A program made the position numbers and the translations under genes. DNA of 64,000 bases from Solibacteraceae bacterium (GTDB lineage Bacteria > Acidobacteriota > Terriglobia > Bryobacterales > Bryobacteraceae): the NCBI GenBank assembly GCA_021324015.1, contig JAJPJX010000143.1, forward strand, positions 1-64,000. Direction: 5' to 3'. The notes beneath the pieces were generated by a model that made no database searches, was not told the DNA's origin, and was given only the letters and a program-made list of their open reading frames with translations. How positions within the stretch are numbered: the first letter of the stretch is position 1; every line of letters begins with the position of its first letter. Positions 8,836-41,250 of the stretch are shown here, one piece after another.

Positions 8836-8924
8836 TGGTGCCCGGGGCGGGACTTGAACCCGCACTCACCTTGCGGTGAAAAGGATTTTAAGTCCTTTGC
8901 GTCTGCCGATTTCGCCACCCGGGC
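8836..8924 (-). tRNA. tRNA-Leu (anticodon UAA)
   Basis: A complete class II tRNA. The acceptor stem GCCCGGG (8918-8924) pairs with CCCGGGC (8840-8846), the discriminator base is A, and the CCA end is encoded in the DNA (8836-8838). The anticodon loop CTTAAAA gives anticodon UAA. The long variable arm (CACC-loop-GGTG type) and the G/A-rich D arm fit tRNA-Leu. The T arm has GGTTCAAGTCC. Confidence 0.97.
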
Positions 8925-33178: not shown

Positions 33179-33529
33179 TGGTGGAGGCGGCGGGAGTCGA
33201 ACCCGCGTCCGAGAAAGTCCGTCATGAAGAGCCTACGTGCGTAGCCGGTTCGAAAATTTCGGCGGCCACCTCAGAGCCGGCAAGAGGGATGGCCTCCTAG
33301 CCCGATTGATCTCGGCCTGCGGCTCCGGACCGAAGCCCTCGGCCTATCCCGCAACATGACGCTCACTGGCCGCCGCGCGGGCTCAACGGCTGGAGCGGCT
33401 GCTTAATTAATTAAGCAGCGTAAGCAAACTGCTGGTTGGCAGTTATGGTTTTCCGATCGTTTTACGGGAGCTCGGAACCCGGCACGCCTCCCCACCACGA
33501 TCCAATCCCGTCGAATCCGTTACGCCCCC
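33179..33529 (-). ncRNA. ssrA: Transfer-messenger RNA
   Basis: A complete one-piece tmRNA. The 5' end (GGGGGCG, then TAACGGATTCGAC) pairs with the 3' acceptor strand CGCCTCC-A, and CCA is encoded (33179-33181). The T arm contains GGTTCGACTCC. The tag reading frame (33411-33440) is GCC-AAC-CAG-CAG-TTT-GCT-TAC-GCT-GCT-TAA, giving ANQQFAYAA, preceded by the Ala carried on the RNA. It rescues stalled ribosomes and marks the product for Clp-type proteolysis through the terminal Ala-Ala. A TAGAAT box lies about 45 bases upstream of the 5' end. Confidence 0.97.
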
Positions 33530-33649: not shown

Positions 33650-35365
33650 ATGCTGCAAATCATCCGCAGTCCGAAAGTCTACGACGTAGTGGTCATTGGT
33701 TCCGGAGCCGGCGGCGGCACCGCCGTCCACGTGCTCACCAGCATGGGAATGAACGTGGCCCTGCTGGAGGCCGGCCCGATGCTCCACCCGCAGAAGGACT
33801 TCAAGGAGCACGTGCTGCCCTACGAGGTGGATCACCGCGGCGCGGGCGAACACGCCGAACTGTATTTCGGGCGGCAGCAGTGGGGCTATTTCAGCGCGCC
33901 CAACGGCTATTGGGATATCAACGGCGAACCATACACGGTGGCGCCCGGCAACGAATTCCGCTGGTTTCGGTCCCGCATTCTGGGCGGCAGGACGAATCAC
34001 TACGGGCGTATCTCGCTGCGCTTTTCCGACTACGACTTCAAACCCTACTCGACCGACGGGCTGGGCGACGATTGGCCCGTGACCTACGACGAGATCGCGC
34101 CTTACTACGACAAGGCCGAAGAATTCATCGGCGTGACGGGCACCAAAGAAGGCCTGCGCACGGCCCCAGACGGAAAATTCCTGCCGCCCATCGCCCCGCG
34201 GGTGCACGAGGTGCTGGTGCAGAAGGCTTGCCAGCGGCTGAACATTCCGTGCATTCCGTCGCGCATGGCCATGCTCACCAAGTCCATTCACGGCCGTGCC
34301 GCCTGCCACTACTGCGGGCAGTGCGGGCGCGGCTGCCGTACGGCTTCGGCATATTCCTCCAGCCAGGCGCAGATCTTCCCCGCCATGAAGACCGGCAGGC
34401 TGGAAGTGTTCACCGGCGCCATGGCGCGCGAACTGGTGACCGACCCCAACACGGGCAAGGTGACCGCGGTGAACTACGTGGACAAGGCCACGCGCACGGA
34501 CCAGCAGATCCGCTGCCGGGCGGTGGTGCTGGGGGCCAGCGCCTGCGAATCGGCGCGGCTGCTGCTGAATTCGAAATCGTCCCGGCATCCCAACGGGCTG
34601 GCGAATTCCTCCGGCGTGGTGGGCCGCTACCTGACCGACAGCGTGGGGTTCGGGCTGAGCGGTTACATTCCGGCCCTGGAAGGCCTGCCGCGGCATAATT
34701 CCGACGGCATCGGCGGGATGCACGTCTATATCCCCTGGTGGCTCTTCGACAAAAAGGACAAGGAATTCCCGCGCGGCTACCACGTCGAGATCGGCGGCGG
34801 CTTCCACATGCCGCAACTGGGCAGCTTCCACGGCGTCTGCCGCAAGCACGAAGGCTACGGCCAGGTGTTGAAGGAAGCCGTGCTCAAAGGCTACGGCTGC
34901 ACGGTGGGTTTCGCCGGACGCGGCGAGATGATCCCCAACGAGCACTCCTACTGCGAGATCGACCCGGACCGCGTGGACGCCTACGGCATCCCGGTGCTGC
35001 GCTTCCATTTCCGCTGGAGCGAGCACGAGATCAGGCAGGCGCGGCACATGCGGGAGACCTTTACCCAGATCATCGAGACCATGGGCGGCAGGGTGCTGGG
35101 CCTGGCCAACCCGGAGCGGGAGAGCGAAGGCATCTCCACCGGCGGCACCATCATCCACGAAGCCGGCACCATCCGCATGGGAGACGACCCCAGGAAATCG
35201 GCGCTCAACAAGTACAGCCAGACGCACGACGTGCGGAACCTGTTCGTGGCGGACGCGGCTCCCTTCGTCAGCCAGCCGGACAAGAACGTGACGCTGAGCA
35301 TCATCGCGTTCTCGTGGCGCATGTCGGAACACCTGGCCGAGGAGATGAGAAAAGGCAATGTCTGA
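33650..35365 (+). CDS. GMC-family oxidoreductase, large subunit
   Basis: A 571-residue FAD enzyme of the glucose-methanol-choline family, probably a membrane-associated sugar or polyol dehydrogenase. Seen: the FAD-binding motif VVVIGSGAGGGTAVHVL (about 13-29), GGRTNHYGRISLRFSDYDF, and the C-terminal NLFVADAAPFVSQPDKNVTLSIIA signature. An unusual four-cysteine motif C-x2-C-x2-C-x3-C (CHYCGQCGRGC, near residue 222) resembles the iron-sulfur-binding stretch of FAD-dependent glucose/fructose dehydrogenases. The following small subunit gene starts eight bases before this stop, so the pair is translationally coupled. The substrate is not predictable from sequence. Confidence 0.92.
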   Translation: MLQIIRSPKVYDVVVIGSGAGGGTAVHVLTSMGMNVALLEAGPMLHPQKDFKEHVLPYEVDHRGAGEHAELYFGRQQWGYFSAPNGYWDINGEPYTVAPGNEFRWFRSRILGGRTNHYGRISLRFSDYDFKPYSTDGLGDDWPVTYDEIAPYYDKAEEFIGVTGTKEGLRTAPDGKFLPPIAPRVHEVLVQKACQRLNIPCIPSRMAMLTKSIHGRAACHYCGQCGRGCRTASAYSSSQAQIFPAMKTGRLEVFTGAMARELVTDPNTGKVTAVNYVDKATRTDQQIRCRAVVLGASACESARLLLNSKSSRHPNGLANSSGVVGRYLTDSVGFGLSGYIPALEGLPRHNSDGIGGMHVYIPWWLFDKKDKEFPRGYHVEIGGGFHMPQLGSFHGVCRKHEGYGQVLKEAVLKGYGCTVGFAGRGEMIPNEHSYCEIDPDRVDAYGIPVLRFHFRWSEHEIRQARHMRETFTQIIETMGGRVLGLANPERESEGISTGGTIIHEAGTIRMGDDPRKSALNKYSQTHDVRNLFVADAAPFVSQPDKNVTLSIIAFSWRMSEHLAEEMRKGNV

Positions 35366-35975
35366 CGAGAACCTGGACCTTTCCCGGCGCGACGCGCTGC
35401 GCAACCTCGGGATCACCCTGACCTTGACCACCGCGGGGGCGGGCGTGGTTTCGGCGCAGGACGCCGCCCACGTGCACCACCTGGTGACGCAGGAAAAGAC
35501 CGCCGGGCCGTACCAGCCCAAGTGCTTCAACCCGCACGAATACGCCACTCTGCGCCGCCTGAGCGAGCTGATTATGCCGGCCGACGAGCACTCCAAGAGC
35601 GCGATCGAGGCCGGCGCGCCGGAGTTTATCGACCTGCTGGCCAGCCGCAACGACGAACTGGCGCACATCTACACCGGGGGGCTGGCCTGGCTGGACCAGG
35701 AGATCGAGCGGCGCCACGGCAGCACTTTCCTCGCCGCCGCGCCGGAGCAGCAGACGGCCATGCTGGACCTGATCGCCTACCGCAAGAACGAGTCGCCGGA
35801 GCTGGGGCCGGGAATCCGCTTCTTCGCCTGGGTGCGCAACATGGTGGTGGACGCCTACTTCACCAGCAAGATCGGCATGGACTACCTGGGCTTCATGGGT
35901 AACGGCGCCATGTCGCACTTCAGCGTCCCCCAGGCGGCCATCGACTACGCGCTCAAGCGCAGCCCGCTGGCGTAG
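35358..35975 (+). CDS. Gluconate 2-dehydrogenase subunit 3-like, Tat-exported
   Basis: A 205-residue small subunit. The N terminus LSRRDALRNLGITLTLTTAGAGVVSA is a twin-arginine signal, so the heterodimer with the GMC subunit probably crosses the inner membrane folded ('hitchhiker' export of the large subunit, which has no signal). The rest matches the gluconate 2-dehydrogenase subunit 3 family: FNPHEYATLRRLSELIMPADEHSKSAIEAGAPEFIDLL. It overlaps the large-subunit gene by eight bases. The usual third partner, a cytochrome c subunit, is not adjacent. Confidence 0.93.
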   Translation: MSDENLDLSRRDALRNLGITLTLTTAGAGVVSAQDAAHVHHLVTQEKTAGPYQPKCFNPHEYATLRRLSELIMPADEHSKSAIEAGAPEFIDLLASRNDELAHIYTGGLAWLDQEIERRHGSTFLAAAPEQQTAMLDLIAYRKNESPELGPGIRFFAWVRNMVVDAYFTSKIGMDYLGFMGNGAMSHFSVPQAAIDYALKRSPLA

Positions 35976-35981
35976 CCGCGG

Positions 35982-37607
35982 CTACCCCACCAGCGCCTCG
36001 GACCGCGCGTCCACGTCCACCAGCTCCGGCTGCTCTTCCAGCGGAACCGAAAACGCGCGCTCGATCCTTTCGCGATACACGGGGCCGGAGTTGTACGTGC
36101 AGAACGGATAGATCCTGCCGTCGGGCGCGGCGTAGTGGATCACGCAGCGCTTCACCCGTTCCACGTCGTAGTTGTAGGCGTCCATGAAATGCATGCCGGC
36201 TACCATCAGGGTGCGGTAGGTGAAGCCCTGCCGTTCCTTCTCCCCGCGGCCGTAACGCTTGTCGGTGAAACCTTGCAGAGTCTGCAGAAACTTGGTGAAG
36301 GTCAGCCCCTCGGGCGCCTTCTCCTGGTGAAAATGCTTGCGCAGCAGGTTCCAGGTCTGGATCTTGGTGAAAAACTTCACCCGCTGCCGGCCGGCCTTGC
36401 GGGCCATCAGATCCATTTCCTGGAGCATGGGTCCCACGTCCACAAAACGCGTCACCGGCACGGCCCGGCGCTGCTGGTCCACGAACAGGTAAGTCCCCAG
36501 CGAGCAGTGCGGGTGCGGCGTCAGGTGTGTGGTCAGTTCCCCGCGCAGCGCGCTCAGCAGCTTGGAAAACGGCGTCACGCAGGAAAGCGGAAACCAGTCT
36601 TCGTAGACGTTGCAGATCCCGGTCTGATCCTCGACGGCGTGCGCGAAATCGGAAAGCGTGAAGCGCTTGGCCTCCAGTTCCCGGCGCGCGATGCGCCCCG
36701 TGAAGGCCACCGGCTGGAAGCTGATGCCGCTCACGCAGTCGATATTCTCCAGCGCCAGCCGCAGCATGTCCCCTACCTGGTGGTCGTTCACGCCCTTCAC
36801 GATGGTGGGCACGAACACGATCTTCAGCCCCGCGCGGCGCACGTTTTCGATGCACTTCAACTTCTTCTCCCACAGGGGCTCGCCGCGCGTGCGCCGGTAC
36901 ACCTCGTCGCACACCCCGTCGAATTGCAGGTACAAGGTGTGCAGTCCCGCCTCTTTGGCCTGGCAGGCGAACTCCAGGTTGGTGAATTTGATGCCGTTGG
37001 TGGCCGCCTGCAGGTGCGAGAAGCCCATCTCCCGGGCCAGCCGCAGCACGTCCAGAAATCGCGGATAGATGGTCGGCTCGCCGCCGGAGAACTGCACGAT
37101 CCGCCCGGCCACCGGCCGCTCGTCGCGCAGCGCTTGCAGCATGCCGCGCACCTGCTCGAAGTCCGGCTCGTAGAGGTAGCCCGCGGCGTTGGCGTTGGCG
37201 AAGCATACCGGACAGGTCAGGTTGCAGCGGTTAGTCAGGTCGATATTGGCCAGCCCTGTGTGGCTGGTGTGCAGGGAGCACAGGCCGCAGTCGTGCGGGC
37301 AACGCCGCGCATCCGCGACCGCCGGATTCTCCAGCCCGCGGCTGTCGCCGAAGGTCCATTCCTCCATCTTGCGATACAGCCGGGCATCCGAGAAGACGAT
37401 GTCGCGGAAGGCGCCGTGGAGCGGGCAGCTTTTCTCCATAACCACGCGGCCGTCCTCCTCGAACAGGCGGGCGGCAATCAACTGCGTGCACTCCGGGCAC
37501 AGCGACTCGGTGGTCCGGGGGAGACCCTTCGCGATCGGTGTGATGGGCGCTCCCGTATAGGTAGTTTCAGGCTGTAATATCTGAAAGACGCCGGCCATGG
37601 TGTCCAT
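35982..37607 (-). CDS. Radical SAM protein, tetraether-lipid-synthase-like
   Basis: A 541-residue radical SAM protein with the layout of the archaeal tetraether lipid synthase (Tes/MJ0619) group. N-terminal rubredoxin-like cysteines are C37-x2-C40 and C61-P-L-H-G; an auxiliary-cluster motif C103-x3-C107-x2-C110 (CPHDCGLC) precedes the radical SAM cluster C128-x3-C132-x2-C135 (NRCNLTCPVCF). QFSGGEPTIYP and ATNGIKF are SAM-binding segments. In Tes the enzyme couples hydrocarbon chains to make membrane-spanning lipids; in Acidobacteria such proteins are candidates for iso-diabolic acid or branched tetraether synthesis. No signal or membrane segment is seen. It follows a paralogue separated by a terminator, so it has its own transcript. 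Confidence 0.75.
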   Translation of the reverse strand: MDTMAGVFQILQPETTYTGAPITPIAKGLPRTTESLCPECTQLIAARLFEEDGRVVMEKSCPLHGAFRDIVFSDARLYRKMEEWTFGDSRGLENPAVADARRCPHDCGLCSLHTSHTGLANIDLTNRCNLTCPVCFANANAAGYLYEPDFEQVRGMLQALRDERPVAGRIVQFSGGEPTIYPRFLDVLRLAREMGFSHLQAATNGIKFTNLEFACQAKEAGLHTLYLQFDGVCDEVYRRTRGEPLWEKKLKCIENVRRAGLKIVFVPTIVKGVNDHQVGDMLRLALENIDCVSGISFQPVAFTGRIARRELEAKRFTLSDFAHAVEDQTGICNVYEDWFPLSCVTPFSKLLSALRGELTTHLTPHPHCSLGTYLFVDQQRRAVPVTRFVDVGPMLQEMDLMARKAGRQRVKFFTKIQTWNLLRKHFHQEKAPEGLTFTKFLQTLQGFTDKRYGRGEKERQGFTYRTLMVAGMHFMDAYNYDVERVKRCVIHYAAPDGRIYPFCTYNSGPVYRERIERAFSVPLEEQPELVDVDARSEALVG

Positions 37608-37702
37608 TCTAGGCGCCGCCGTCCCAAGAACAGTACAATCAGGTGCCGAACGGTGAAAATTGAGAGTTGTACGGCGCCGTTTGGGGGATGAAAGGAGAAA
37701 GC

Positions 37703-37739
37703 AAAAAAATGGGCCGCCGGCTTGCTTTCCCGGCGGCCC
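37703..37739 (-). terminator. Rho-independent terminator of the upstream radical SAM gene
   Basis: On the minus strand a very strong stem (GGGCCGCCGG paired with CCGGCGGCCC, loop of nine bases, 37711-37739) is followed by ATTTTTTTGC (37710-37701). It lies 28 bases downstream of the stop codon at 37767. Confidence 0.93.
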
Positions 37740-37766
37740 TAGGTTGTTTGTGGCTTTGAGACTTGC

Positions 37767-39866
37767 TTAATCTCCGAAAGAACCGACCTCTTCCCGGACT
37801 TCGGTGCGCTCCTCGGCCTTGGGAGCCGCGGGCTGTAACTGCACCAGGGCCGGAGCGGGAGCCTCTTTCAAAACGTGTTCGCGGTACAGCTTTGCCATGC
37901 GCGCGTCCTCCTCGGCCTGCTTCTGCTTCAGGGCCCGGGCGCGCAGCTTTTCCTCGCGCGCCGTCTTGGCGATGCCCAGCTCGTCCAGGTCGTGCTGTAC
38001 CTCTTTGGTCACGATCTCGTCGCGCAGCAGCAGGCGGTGTTCCGTGCTGGCCAACTGCACCTTCTTGCCCCCGGCGAAGATCTCATGCCGCCCGTGCTCT
38101 TCGTACCACTTCGTGAGCGTGGCGGTCATGTGCATCTTCTCCACGATGTTCCGCCAGCCTATGCCCGTGTTGTAGGCGCAGAAGGAAATCTCTCCCTGCT
38201 GCGTGGCGTACGGGATAATGCACTGCTCGGTGCGCCGGAAATCGTAGTTGAACAAGTCCTGGAACCACATGCCCGCGATGAACAGGAAGTTCCAGCGGTC
38301 GCGGCGGCGGATCTCAATGTCTTCCAGGCTGCGGTCCGCGCCCACCTTGCCGTAGCTCTTGCCGGTGGCGCCGAAGGTCTTGTCGAACTTCCTCAGCAGG
38401 TCGGTGAGCTTGAAGTGCGTGGGCGCCTGGAAGGGATCGTAGTTGCGCGCCAGCGACAGGGCCATGCCCAGGATGGAGAGCCACTTGCCGCGGGCGGCGT
38501 CGTTCACCCGCGCCACGTCCCGCGCCAGCCGGTCGGCATTCAGGAACGCAGTCACCGGGGCGGATTCCCTGGTCTCCTTGTCCACCATTACGGCCATGCC
38601 CACGCCGCAGTTGGGATGGCACCCGCAGCTCAACTGGCCCCAGGTCGCCTGCGGGCCGTGCACCAGGTCGCTCCAGTCGGAGAAGGTGCTGATGAACGAA
38701 ATCGGGAACCAGTCGCGCGCCGGCTCGCCCAGCCCGGTCTGCTTCTTCACGTCGTGGGCCAGGTGCGAGAGGGTGTAGCGCTGCGCCGTGCGCCGTTCGT
38801 CGGTGATGGCCTCGTCCCGGCCCGTGAAGGACACCGGCTGGAACGACAGGAACGGGATCTTCTTGGGGTTGTCCAGCGCGAACTGGACAATGCGGCCCAC
38901 CTGCTCGTTGTTGATGCCGTTGATGATGGTGATCACCGGGATGATGTCCACGCCGTGCGTGTGCAGGTTCTCGATGGCCCGCAGCTTCACGTCGAACAGG
39001 TTGCCCACCTTGCGGTGCGCGTTGGCGGCGTTGCCGATGCCGTCAAACTGGAGGTAGGCGTACCGCAGGCCGGCTTCCGCCGCCTCCCGGCAGAATTCCG
39101 GGCTCTTGGCGAACTCGATGCCGTTGGTGGCCGCCTGCACGCTGGTGTAGCCCACCTTCCGCGAGTAGCGCACCGCATCCAGGAAGTACGGCGAAATGGT
39201 CGGCTCGCCGCCCGAAAACTGCACCGACATCTGCCGCCGCGGCTTGATCGAAATGGCGTTGTCCAGCAGCGTCTTGATGTCGTCCCAGGTCAACTCGTGC
39301 ACGAAGCCCACCTGGTTGGCGTCCATGAAGCACGGGTCACACATCATGTTGCAACGGTTGGTCAGGTCCACCGTGAGCACCGAACCGCGCCCGTGGGTGA
39401 TGGTGCTGGAGCCGTGGTTGTGCAGCTTTTCGTCGTTGTGCGCACGGATGTCGCGCCCCGGAAACACGGACTCCAGGTGCTTGAAGAAAGCCGTGTCGAT
39501 GGACATCACGTCCTCGAAGTGGCCGTGCACCGGGCAGTCCTTCACCATCAGGATCTTGCCGTCGCGTTCGATGATCTTGGCCTTGATCTCGCCGGCCTTT
39601 TCGTTCAGCAGCACCGAGAGCGGTTTCTTGCCGTCCAGGATCTCTTTCCGGATCTCCGGCACGCAGCGCGGGCACAGCGAGTCGGTCTCGCGCGGCCACC
39701 CCAGGGGAGGCTTCGTTTTCTGATAGGACTTCAGCAGCGGCTTATCCGACCATTGCGGAGTAAACGAAGGATTCTGACGGATCTGGTTCGCCTTGTCGAA
39801 GACGGTCCAGGCCGCCTGCGCGACATAGGTCATCGCTTTTTCTACGTATTTGATCGGCTTGTGCAT
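37767..39866 (-). CDS. Radical SAM protein, divergent paralogue of the neighbour
   Basis: A 699-residue radical SAM protein with the same domain order as the gene downstream of it. It conserves the rubredoxin-like set (C65-x2-C68 and C111-P-V-H-G), the radical SAM cluster C172-x3-C176-x2-C179 (NRCNMMCDPCF), QFSGGEPTISP, ATNGIEFA, and a C-terminal block (IAGMWFQDLFNYDF; FCAYNTGIGWRN) shared with it. It lacks the CPHDCGLC motif and instead has a glycine/histidine-rich linker; a different Cys-rich stretch (SCGCHPNCGVG) appears later. An additional ~120-residue charged, Ala/Pro-rich tail follows the shared core. ATG at 39866 gives an N terminus of amphipathic helices. Probable role: coupling or modification of long-chain lipids, by similarity only. 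Confidence 0.72.
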   Translation of the reverse strand: MHKPIKYVEKAMTYVAQAAWTVFDKANQIRQNPSFTPQWSDKPLLKSYQKTKPPLGWPRETDSLCPRCVPEIRKEILDGKKPLSVLLNEKAGEIKAKIIERDGKILMVKDCPVHGHFEDVMSIDTAFFKHLESVFPGRDIRAHNDEKLHNHGSSTITHGRGSVLTVDLTNRCNMMCDPCFMDANQVGFVHELTWDDIKTLLDNAISIKPRRQMSVQFSGGEPTISPYFLDAVRYSRKVGYTSVQAATNGIEFAKSPEFCREAAEAGLRYAYLQFDGIGNAANAHRKVGNLFDVKLRAIENLHTHGVDIIPVITIINGINNEQVGRIVQFALDNPKKIPFLSFQPVSFTGRDEAITDERRTAQRYTLSHLAHDVKKQTGLGEPARDWFPISFISTFSDWSDLVHGPQATWGQLSCGCHPNCGVGMAVMVDKETRESAPVTAFLNADRLARDVARVNDAARGKWLSILGMALSLARNYDPFQAPTHFKLTDLLRKFDKTFGATGKSYGKVGADRSLEDIEIRRRDRWNFLFIAGMWFQDLFNYDFRRTEQCIIPYATQQGEISFCAYNTGIGWRNIVEKMHMTATLTKWYEEHGRHEIFAGGKKVQLASTEHRLLLRDEIVTKEVQHDLDELGIAKTAREEKLRARALKQKQAEEDARMAKLYREHVLKEAPAPALVQLQPAAPKAEERTEVREEVGSFGD

Positions 39867-40182
39867 CTCTTCTGTGACTCCTCGTGGGTTGCGCAGCTTC
39901 CCCAGCAATCTCTCCGAGTGAACGGGAACGACAGCCTCACACCTTTGCGGACCTTCGCAACCGGTGTGATGAGTCAGTATAGTGAATCTCCGCGGACGGG
40001 TGCCATGAATAGGAATTAAACTGTTGATTTCTTTGGTTGTATGGCGACATCGGGGGTTGAACGGCAGTTTTCCCGGGCTGAGCGGTGGCTCGGTTCTAGC
40101 CCGTTGAAACACAGTCACTTACGAAGCAGAAGTCCGGTTTCGAACAGATTTCCCCGCCGCGCGGTTCGGGTACACTGGGACC
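39867..40182. other. Intergenic region with 5' leader and divergent promoters
   Basis: About 315 bases between the divergent radical SAM gene and queG. It holds the hairpin and TATACT box described separately and a purine-rich leader just before the radical SAM ATG. No open frame with a recognisable product was found. Confidence 0.5.
39937..39981 (-). promoter_or_regulatory. TATACT box and 5'-terminal hairpin upstream of the radical SAM gene
   Basis: On the minus strand TATACT (39981-39976) resembles a -10 box. The predicted transcript would begin about seven bases later, at a stem-loop: TCACACC (39969-39963) pairs with GGTGTGA (39943-39937), and inside it TTGCG (39960-39956) pairs with CGCAA (39949-39945), loop AAGGTC. 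No good -35 box was found. It could protect the mRNA end or bind a regulator. Confidence 0.45.
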
Positions 40183-40251: not shown

Positions 40252-41250
40252 GTGGCCCCCGCCACACCCCTCCCCGAAAGCGCGTACTATCCCGCATGGG
40301 TAGCCGCCGGCTATGCCGCCGAAATGGGCTACCTCACCGGCCGGCGCGCGGAGGTGCGCGGCGATCCCCGCCGCCTGATGGCCTCCGCGCAATCGGTCAT
40401 TTGCGTGGGCAAGCTGTACAACACTCCGCTGCCGTATTCCACCGCGTTCACGGACGCGGAATTGGGCTGGATTTCGCGCTACGCCTGGGGCGACGACTAC
40501 CACGATGTGCTACGCGAGGGGCTGCGGCGGCTGGCCGTGCGCCTCATGGAGGCTTCCGCCGAGCCCTTCGAGTGGAAAATCTGCGTGGACACAGCGCCCC
40601 TGCTCGAGCGGGCCTACGCGCGGCACGCCGGCCTGGGCTGGATCGGTAAGAACACCTGCCTGATTCACCAGGGCATGGGCTCCTGGTTCTTCCTGGGGGA
40701 ACTGCTGGTTTCGTTCGCGGCCGAACCGGACCGGCCGCCGCCGGACCGCTGCGGTTCCTGCACGCACTGCATCGACGCCTGCCCCACCCAGGCCCTGGTG
40801 CCCACCGGCCGGCCCGGAGGTCCCCCCTATGCGCTCGATTCAGGCCGCTGCATTTCGTATTTCACCATCGAGTTGCGCGGCACCATCCCCGCGGAGATCC
40901 GCGCCGGCGTGGGCGCGCAGGTCTTCGGGTGCGATATCTGCCAGGACGTCTGCCCCTGGAACCGCCGCGCGCCGGTCACCTCCGATCCCGCCTTCGCCGT
41001 GCGCCTGTCCGCGCCGCCGCTCGAGCGCCTGGCAGCCCTCTCGGAGGAAGACTTTCGCGCCTTGTTCCGGAACAGCCCGGTCGAGCGGGCGCGCTACCGC
41101 GGCTTCCTGCGCAACGTCGCGGTGGCCATGGGCAACGCGCGCATGGAGAAGTTCCGTCCCGCCCTCGAGCGCCTGGCCGCCTCGCCGGATCCCCTGGTCG
41201 CCGAACACGCCCGCTGGGCGCTGGAGCAACTGGCTAGCGATCCATCGTAA
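40252..41250 (+). CDS. queG: Epoxyqueuosine reductase QueG
   Basis: A cobalamin- and iron-sulfur-dependent enzyme that reduces epoxyqueuosine to queuosine in tRNA anticodons. Seen: SYYPAWVAAGYAAEMGYL-like N-terminal helix region, WKICVDTAPLLERAYARHAGLGWIGKNTCLI, two ferredoxin motifs (CGSCTHCIDACP; CDICQDVCPWN) and a C-terminal HEAT-like region. Homologous sequence (SIKRLARECGFDLAGVA) continues upstream of the first canonical start (GTG 40252) to at least 40183, with no ATG, GTG or TTG; the frame is open from 40108. The natural start is therefore probably a non-standard codon (ATC at 40183 or CTG at 40219) or a mutated ATG. With the extension the protein is about 355 residues, close to the family norm. 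Confidence 0.9.
   Translation: MAPATPLPESAYYPAWVAAGYAAEMGYLTGRRAEVRGDPRRLMASAQSVICVGKLYNTPLPYSTAFTDAELGWISRYAWGDDYHDVLREGLRRLAVRLMEASAEPFEWKICVDTAPLLERAYARHAGLGWIGKNTCLIHQGMGSWFFLGELLVSFAAEPDRPPPDRCGSCTHCIDACPTQALVPTGRPGGPPYALDSGRCISYFTIELRGTIPAEIRAGVGAQVFGCDICQDVCPWNRRAPVTSDPAFAVRLSAPPLERLAALSEEDFRALFRNSPVERARYRGFLRNVAVAMGNARMEKFRPALERLAASPDPLVAEHARWALEQLASDPS

Follow-up and report, generated by a model that had tools for sequence, protein, structure and literature searches.

What do two neighbouring radical S-adenosylmethionine (SAM) proteins of an acidobacterium do, and do they do the same thing? The question is raised by a 64,000-nucleotide stretch of DNA from a Solibacteraceae bacterium (contig JAJPJX010000143.1; the window), in which an earlier reading of the letters, hereafter the original prediction, had seen a tandem pair resembling tetraether or membrane-spanning lipid synthases. 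We call the two Tes-family proteins, and the clades formed by their relatives, P1 and P2; G, L, f and C numbers denote genomes, loci, families and contigs in this analysis. The matter has some reach, as many reconstructions of past temperature and pH rely on branched glycerol dialkyl glycerol tetraethers (brGDGTs), whose producing bacteria and enzymes are unsettled. We consider it rather probable that both proteins are lipid-coupling enzymes acting on parallel substrates, P1 on ether lipids to give branched tetraethers and P2 on ester lipids to give iso-diabolic acid. More tentatively, P2 may represent a second Tes-like family and the main acidobacterial iso-diabolic acid synthase, with P1 and the reductase proteins PlsA/PlsR forming a separate route to brGDGTs. 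The reactions, substrates and products given here for both proteins are predictions made from sequence.

The resemblance to Tes, for which the original prediction had suggested a profile search and a superposition of AlphaFold models as checks, was borne out by both. The two proteins match the Pfam families Radical_SAM and HMPTM N-terminal ribbon above their curated cut-offs and show 34% identity to each other across 533 aligned positions. On NF045702, the NCBIfam equivalog for the tetraether lipid synthase Tes with a curated cut-off of 450 bits, P1 scores 578.6 bits and passes, while P2 scores 310.1 bits and falls below; both fail the 490-bit cut-off of NF045646, the TrsS radical SAM (seleno)protein (342 bits for P1, 203 for P2). 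Among PDB entries the top relative of P1 is the archaeal enzyme of 7TOL/7TOM (E 3e-141, the next at 1e-5), and P2 matches 7TOL with an E value of 5.3e-61, so that for both the likeness to Tes greatly exceeds chance. The AlphaFold2 models of P1 (mean pLDDT 87.0, pTM 0.88) and P2 (pLDDT 83.4, pTM 0.85) fit 7TOM with Z scores of 52.1 (2.2 Å over 485 residues) and 38.7 (2.9 Å over 476 residues), respectively, MoaA being the next fold in both cases (Z 21.8 and 18.6). By profile, by sequence and by fold, both proteins matched unrelated radical SAM families (methyltransferases, peptide maturases, MoaA) far less well than Tes; best matches to such families had been named as the outcome that would overturn the idea, and this reading was rejected. 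By cut-off, ligand residues and fold, P1 is a true Tes as regards its family; lipid coupling itself is predicted. The description of the pair as two adjacent paralogues needs qualification: they are adjacent and related but not equal, P2 lying below the Tes cut-off and in a clade of its own. In a tree of 42 P1 sequences, 33 of the 66 P2 sequences and the archaeal MJ0619, P2 formed one clade (SH-aLRT 100) and MJ0619 fell to the side of P1, where a meeting of several long branches makes finer placing unsure.

The metal sites separate the two clades further. In MJ0619 a rubredoxin-like iron is bound by C9, C12, C33 and H36, a surface cluster, [4Fe-4S]N, by C73, C77, C80 and a conserved His, and the radical SAM cluster by a CX3CX2C motif; a further cluster, [4Fe-4S]C, lies close to the active site with Met439 as a labile ligand, and an S–C substrate intermediate is evidenced there (PMC9433317). 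The three [4Fe-4S] clusters plus one rubredoxin-like iron named in the original prediction agree with the sites given in that paper, and P1 has all of the ligands (Table 1). We aligned 109 sequences (MJ0619, 42 P1 and 66 P2, both window proteins included), leaving out near-copies and proteins shorter than 455 aa. The MJ0619 ligands are kept in 42/42 P1, the exception being one N-terminally truncated row without the rubredoxin site; H113, which corresponds to MJ0619 H83, is conserved in all 42, and Y492 aligns with MJ0619 Y459. Judged by conservation, H83 would be the fourth [4Fe-4S]N ligand, i.e. the conserved His of the paper, and C338, C455 and C470 would be the three cysteines of [4Fe-4S]C. 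All 66 P2 proteins keep the rubredoxin site, the radical SAM motif, C338, M439, C455, C470, Y459 and the tabulated SAM contacts, and none of them has counterparts of C73, C77, C80 and H83. Since none of the 66 has even one cysteine in the stretch that separates its rubredoxin site from its radical SAM motif, the loss of the [4Fe-4S]N ligands is not a product of misalignment. Thus the rubredoxin-like cysteines and CX3CX2C motif that had been noted as common to the pair are present in both, and the CPHDCGLC motif noted in the 541-residue copy supplies C103, C107 and C110 of P1, P2 having no cysteines there. Taken together, the ligand alignment and the placement of the clusters in PMC9433317 suggest that P2 keeps the catalytic-cluster residues and loses only the surface [4Fe-4S]N, the cluster content of both proteins being deduced from their residues.

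Other features also mark P2. The spacer within its rubredoxin site is 42 residues long in 64/66 sequences and 48 in the other two, compared with 20 in 40/42 P1. The extra cysteines C414 and C416 are both present in 66/66 P2, and P1 has a cysteine at these places in 3/42 and 29/42, respectively; in place of H440 and H458, all 66 P2 have Trp and Pro, respectively. Compared with Tes, P2 also has an additional helix, of about 24 residues, at its N-terminus, and its C-terminal part is longer. The hydrophobic moment of the helix is 0.53, a value reached by 3.2% of all P2 sequence windows; this is suggestive only, and we do not claim a membrane anchor. Two f26 genomes, G247 (L067, L119) and G136 (L078, L079), carry two diverged P2 copies each, about 66% and about 52% identical to P2 of the window and all four without the [4Fe-4S]N ligands, a further duplication within P2. 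Three f36 genomes (G145, G169, G209) have three Tes-family matches each.

Table 1. Features of the P2–P1 locus, with positions in the window
Feature	Position	Strand	Basis or remark
P1, Tes-type radical SAM lipid-coupling enzyme (tes), predicted	35982..37607	-	541 aa; NF045702, 7tol, model
P1 [4Fe-4S]C ligands C368, M472, C488, C503	36099..36506	-	= MJ0619 C338, M439, C455, C470
P1 radical SAM motif C128-X3-C132-X2-C135	37203..37226	-	Pfam, alignment
P1 [4Fe-4S]N site C103-P-H-D-C107-G-L-C110..H113	37269..37301	-	aligned to MJ0619 C73, C77, C80, H83
P1 rubredoxin-like iron site C37, C40, C61, H64	37416..37499	-	aligned to MJ0619 C9, C12, C33, H36
P2–P1 intergenic gap, 159 bp	37608..37766	-	ORF ends
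P2, Tes-like radical SAM protein, separate clade without N-terminal [4Fe-4S] cluster ligands	37767..39866	-	699 aa
P2 other [4Fe-4S]C ligands M533, C549, C563, and Y553	38178..38270	-	alignment
P2 C414-G-C416-H-P-N-C420	38607..38627	-	C420 = cluster ligand C338; C414, C416 extra
P2 radical SAM motif C172-X3-C176-X2-C179	39330..39353	-	Pfam, alignment
P2 H-x-H-G-x-S...G-R-G segment at the place of Tes [4Fe-4S]N, without cysteine	39384..39422	-	alignment
P2 rubredoxin-like iron site C65, C68, C111, H114	39525..39674	-	spacer 42 residues vs 20

The two clades also differ in their distribution, which we followed in a phylum sample (297 genomes of at least 90% completeness, Tes-family matches at 1e-30, P1 defined by the NF045702 cut-off) and in a sample of one family, f1 (195 genomes, matches at 1e-50); weaker, non-P1 matches were taken as P2, not each one being confirmed as such. 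Tes-family matches were found in 164/297 genomes of the phylum sample and P1 in 33. No P1 is present in the other 131 matched genomes, and in 15 of the 33 genomes with P1 it is the sole match at E≤1e-30. In the family sample 182/195 genomes have a match, 37/195 have P1 and, by match counts, approximately 172/195 carry a match other than P1, counted here as P2. All 35 genomes listed for family f8 have a P2-range or other non-P1 match. Nine genomes reached via named P2 loci, in which P2 is present by choice of sample, have no P1: Acidipila rosea, Granulicella aggregans, Acidicapsa dinghuensis, two Acidobacteriaceae strains without species name, and metagenome-assembled genomes (MAGs) labelled Edaphobacter, Paludibaculum, Solibacter usitatus and Chloracidobacterium. 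In named records, P2 of the window is matched best by proteins from Bryobacterales and other Acidobacteria, at no more than 84% identity (best 80 of 582), which makes the source an acidobacterium close to Bryobacteraceae. P2-range matches also occur in f36 and in G171, which we tentatively take to be Chloracidobacterium and Luteitalea and which would then stand for subdivisions 4 and 6. Iso-diabolic acid is reported from subdivisions 1, 3, 4 and 6 in a survey of 46 strains from seven subdivisions (PMC13274423), and makes up about 12–30% in Edaphobacter strains (PMC11354219).

The partner that P1 tracks across genomes is a predicted ester-to-ether reductase. PlsA-like proteins (PF09989) occur in several types across the genomes; one of these, the split type, is roughly 1,030 aa long, combines two BcrAD_BadFG domains with a DUF2229 domain and is followed directly by a plsR-like gene on the same strand in 26/27 loci, the exception being L214, where plsA lies no more than 60 bases from the contig start. 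The names PlsA and PlsR are our own assumption, made from the papers' description and not from comparison with a characterised PlsA. In the family sample the split type is present in 36/37 P1 genomes (all but G512) vs 4/158 others (Fisher p 1e-33; the total of 40/195 includes fragments). The four others are G415, whose P1 is truncated, G506 and G511, whose genus includes four P1 genomes, and G435. Full-length split PlsA is found in 15/33 P1 genomes of the phylum sample vs 3/264 others (p 1e-13), or 4/264 when a fragment in the P1-negative G239 is counted (p 5e-13). On an rpoB tree of 69 genomes picked by us, 34 of them with P1, there are 14 supported independent pairs that differ in P1; in a mean of 6.5 of these split PlsA differs in the same direction, in 0.1 in the opposite one and in 7.5 not at all (median p 0.03). 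A 52-row rpoB tree gave 13 pairs, with 8.3 the same and 0.0 opposite (median p 0.008). Physical linkage is occasional, with P1-plsA-plsR in a single orientation in G224 and G277, which belong to one genus, and a plsA fragment beside P1, divergent, in G462; no other neighbour of P1 common across families was seen among 13 P1 loci (L100–L112) together with L205 and L206. In the genome of the window, contig C184 carries the split type, while two other types lie on C188 and C43. The closest known counterparts of the split type are PlsA/PlsR and the Ger ester-to-ether reductases; in the genome of the window it is a co-occurring partner located outside the window, and its activity in these bacteria is presumed.

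Some P1 proteins stand apart. Those of L032 (G301, f46) and L033 (G313, f67) are 46–48% identical to MJ0619 and 41–42% to P1 of the window, and are possibly separate transfers from archaea; neither genome has a PF09989 match at 1e-15. The P1 proteins of L056, L058 and L059 (f55, f10), about 47–48% identical to that of the window and scoring 493–523 bits, form a divergent Tes group with its ligands kept, and none of the five f10 P1 genomes has a PF09989 match at 1e-15.

Our current working hypothesis is that P1 and P2 would each join two lipid tails at their terminal methyl carbons by an sp3–sp3 C–C bond. A 5'-deoxyadenosyl radical would abstract hydrogen from one tail end, the tail carbon would be held by a sulfide belonging to the C-terminal [4Fe-4S] cluster until a radical at a second tail end attacks it; in Tes the first tail radical is described as stored on [4Fe-4S]C and the second as coupled to it (PMC9433317). 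Such chemistry would fit iso-C15 tails because the isopropyl end is common to iso-C15 and phytanyl chains (see also PMC8941075). The substrates of P1 would be iso-C15 ether lipids supplied by split PlsA/PlsR, and its products branched glycerol trialkyl glycerol tetraether (brGTGT) and brGDGT; its co-inheritance with the presumed ester-to-ether reductase is our reason for placing it in the ether branch. P2 would act on the iso-C15 tails of ordinary ester lipids to yield iso-diabolic acid and is placed in the ester branch because it is the Tes-family protein in P1-less groups for which that acid is reported; it would be the general acidobacterial version, with the surface [4Fe-4S]N gone and the catalytic cluster kept. 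Where the original prediction allowed for either successive steps or different chain substrates, different substrates are now favoured, as P1 travels with the reductase and P2 has no need of it. Solibacter usitatus, for which two Tes homologues, PlsAR, iso-C15 diethers, brGTGT and brGDGT are reported, but no iso-diabolic acid (PMC10087280), fits the ether branch in both its lipids and its gene set. If P2 does couple lipids, the N-terminal cluster of Tes would be dispensable for sp3–sp3 coupling and, if the hypothesis as a whole is true, soil Acidobacteria with P1 and split PlsA could be predicted to make palaeothermometer tetraethers, and those with P2 alone to make iso-diabolic acid only.

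Several points weigh against this hypothesis. The split type was defined after it had been seen in P1 genomes, making the counts post hoc, and all 21 rows of the profile used to search for it came from P1 genomes, although that profile does find full-length members in the P1-negative G065, G296 and G287. Relatedness of the genomes inflates the raw counts, and the independent-pairs p values for split PlsA on the 69-genome tree range from 0.008 to 0.22. An association of P1 with any PF09989 protein (25/33 P1 genomes vs 48/264 others in the phylum sample, Fisher p 5e-11) was dropped, being non-significant by independent pairs on the 52-row tree (median p 0.125); a tree of P2 gave only three supported pairs, too few for such a test, with two to three concordant and none opposed. 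A full split PlsA is lacking in 18/33 P1 genomes of the phylum sample, and 8/33 have no PF09989 match at 1e-15, one of which, G111, has a fragment. P2 itself may act on ether lipids too, as it lies near PlsA-like genes in two places: in G010 (L207, 6355-13470) a plsR-like gene, a plsA-like gene of another type and P2 share one orientation with about 50 bp between plsA and P2, possibly a P2 ether-lipid operon, and in L176 P2 lies about 3.3 kb before a PlsA-like gene. If the second homologue of Solibacter usitatus is an intact P2, the presence of P2 would not suffice for iso-diabolic acid. The subdivisions of the families behind the overlap of P2 with iso-diabolic acid are guessed, and the confirmed bacterial enzyme Mss, discussed below, might make that acid here.

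The tandem itself invites another explanation, in which P2 first makes iso-diabolic acid ester lipids and P1 performs a second coupling that closes the tetraether within one brGDGT pathway. The genes are indeed adjacent in three genera, those of the window, of G434 (same family, another genus) and of G302 (from a different family), and lie about 3.5 and 6 kb from each other in G167 and G125; each of them is found near PlsA-like genes in some genomes. We nevertheless regard a single pathway as unlikely, given how many genomes in the phylum sample have one protein without the other, and given that expressing Tes gave glycerol trialkyl glycerol tetraether and glycerol dialkyl glycerol tetraether in Methanococcus maripaludis (PMC8941075). 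Nor is the tandem pair a conserved unit, even though its adjacency stands. P1 is nearby in 0/80 named P2 loci (53 of them of at least 10 kb) and, in those P1 genomes with a P2 place among those listed, P1 and P2 are mostly on different contigs; a conserved P2–P1 operon as the rule is ruled out by these two findings, and the tandem is recurring but rare. A queG-like gene is the divergent upstream neighbour of P2 in 19/80 named P2 loci, and queG–P2 is perhaps an old neighbourhood later joined by a tandem P1. A queG-like gene also stands beside P2 in G040 (f3). In four f8 loci (L101, L102, L115, L116) ORF cluster c2 lies near P2, with a lipoprotein-like start in two of them.

Another candidate for the acidobacterial iso-diabolic acid synthase is membrane-spanning lipid synthase (Mss), reportedly the work of Sahonero-Canavesi et al. 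2022. Were a homologue of the Bacillota/Thermotoga Mss to make the acid, the Tes-like proteins would have other or minor roles. For Mss, too, the proposed reaction joins iso fatty acyl chains tail to tail (PMC13274423); it is described as the bacterial coupling enzyme that has been confirmed, and matches to it are reported from 11/97 Black Sea Acidobacteria MAGs (PMC11868695). These 11 are, however, a minority, whereas the non-P1 Tes-family matches described above extend to every f8 genome listed and to most of f1; judged by Thermotoga maritima, in which the Tes profile finds nothing at 1e-30, Mss looks like a different lineage. We therefore think it improbable that Mss takes this role. Least likely of all is that P2 no longer couples lipids and carries out some other radical reaction (sulfur insertion, desaturation or modification of another substrate), as the lost [4Fe-4S]N ligands, the substituted H440 and H458 and the two invariant extra cysteines close to the catalytic cluster would allow, but against which speak the invariant catalytic-cluster ligands, labile Met, Y459 and SAM contacts, the Tes fold of the model and a spread of P2 that follows reported iso-diabolic acid by subdivision so far as family names can be guessed.

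Compared with Tes, also known as GDGT-MAS (MJ0619; 7TOL, 7TOM), P1 is alike in its four metal sites, its fold and 44% identity over the structural alignment, and differs in being bacterial and in its likely iso-C15 rather than phytanyl tails. P2 shares with Tes the fold, the radical SAM and rubredoxin sites and the catalytic C-terminal cluster residues including the labile Met, and differs in its sub-cut-off score, the missing [4Fe-4S]N ligands, the 42-residue spacer, the N-terminal helix and the extra invariant Cys. That Acidobacteria have Tes homologues with a possible role in brGDGT synthesis has already been published (PMC8941075, PMC10087280, PMC11868695), and Tes together with PlsAR has been proposed for S. 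usitatus (PMC10087280). Identities to archaeal Tes of 42% and 40% are given for the Koribacter and Solibacter homologues, and of 32% (E 4e-61) for that of Edaphobacter aggregans (PMC8941075); by our own clade assignment the first two look P1-like and the last P2-like. The available parts of these studies (Zeng et al. 2022; Halamka et al. 2022) treat the bacterial homologues as one set and describe no clade split, cluster loss or co-inheritance with PlsA. What is new here is the two-clade split, the loss of cluster ligands in P2 and the link to the reductase, for none of which was a report found in open-access titles and the starts of abstracts, subscription papers and preprints being outside that scope. 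'Tes homologues in Acidobacteria' thereby become two clades with different cofactor residues and genomic partners, each with a testable lipid prediction.

At the locus itself, both reading frames lie on the minus strand where the original prediction had them, with P2 upstream and P1 downstream. The start of P2 was set at the ATG at 39866, where the similarity of its relatives begins; the mechanical ORF list has a start further upstream, at 40118. A terminator scan found no terminator-like site in the gap between the two genes, and they may be co-transcribed. Upstream of P2 and divergent from it is a gene at 40252-41250 (+) that we ourselves have named queG-like, presumably encoding an epoxyqueuosine reductase. 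Downstream of P1 and convergent with it are genes for a GMC oxidoreductase (33650-35365, +), which has an internal Cys-rich stretch, CHYCGQCGRGC, and for gluconate 2-dehydrogenase subunit 3 (35358-35975, +), which overlaps the former and whose start, SRRDAL, looks twin-arginine-like. Across the whole window the only Rfam matches are a tmRNA at 33179-33529 (-; 176.8 bits) and one tRNA at 8839-8924 (-).

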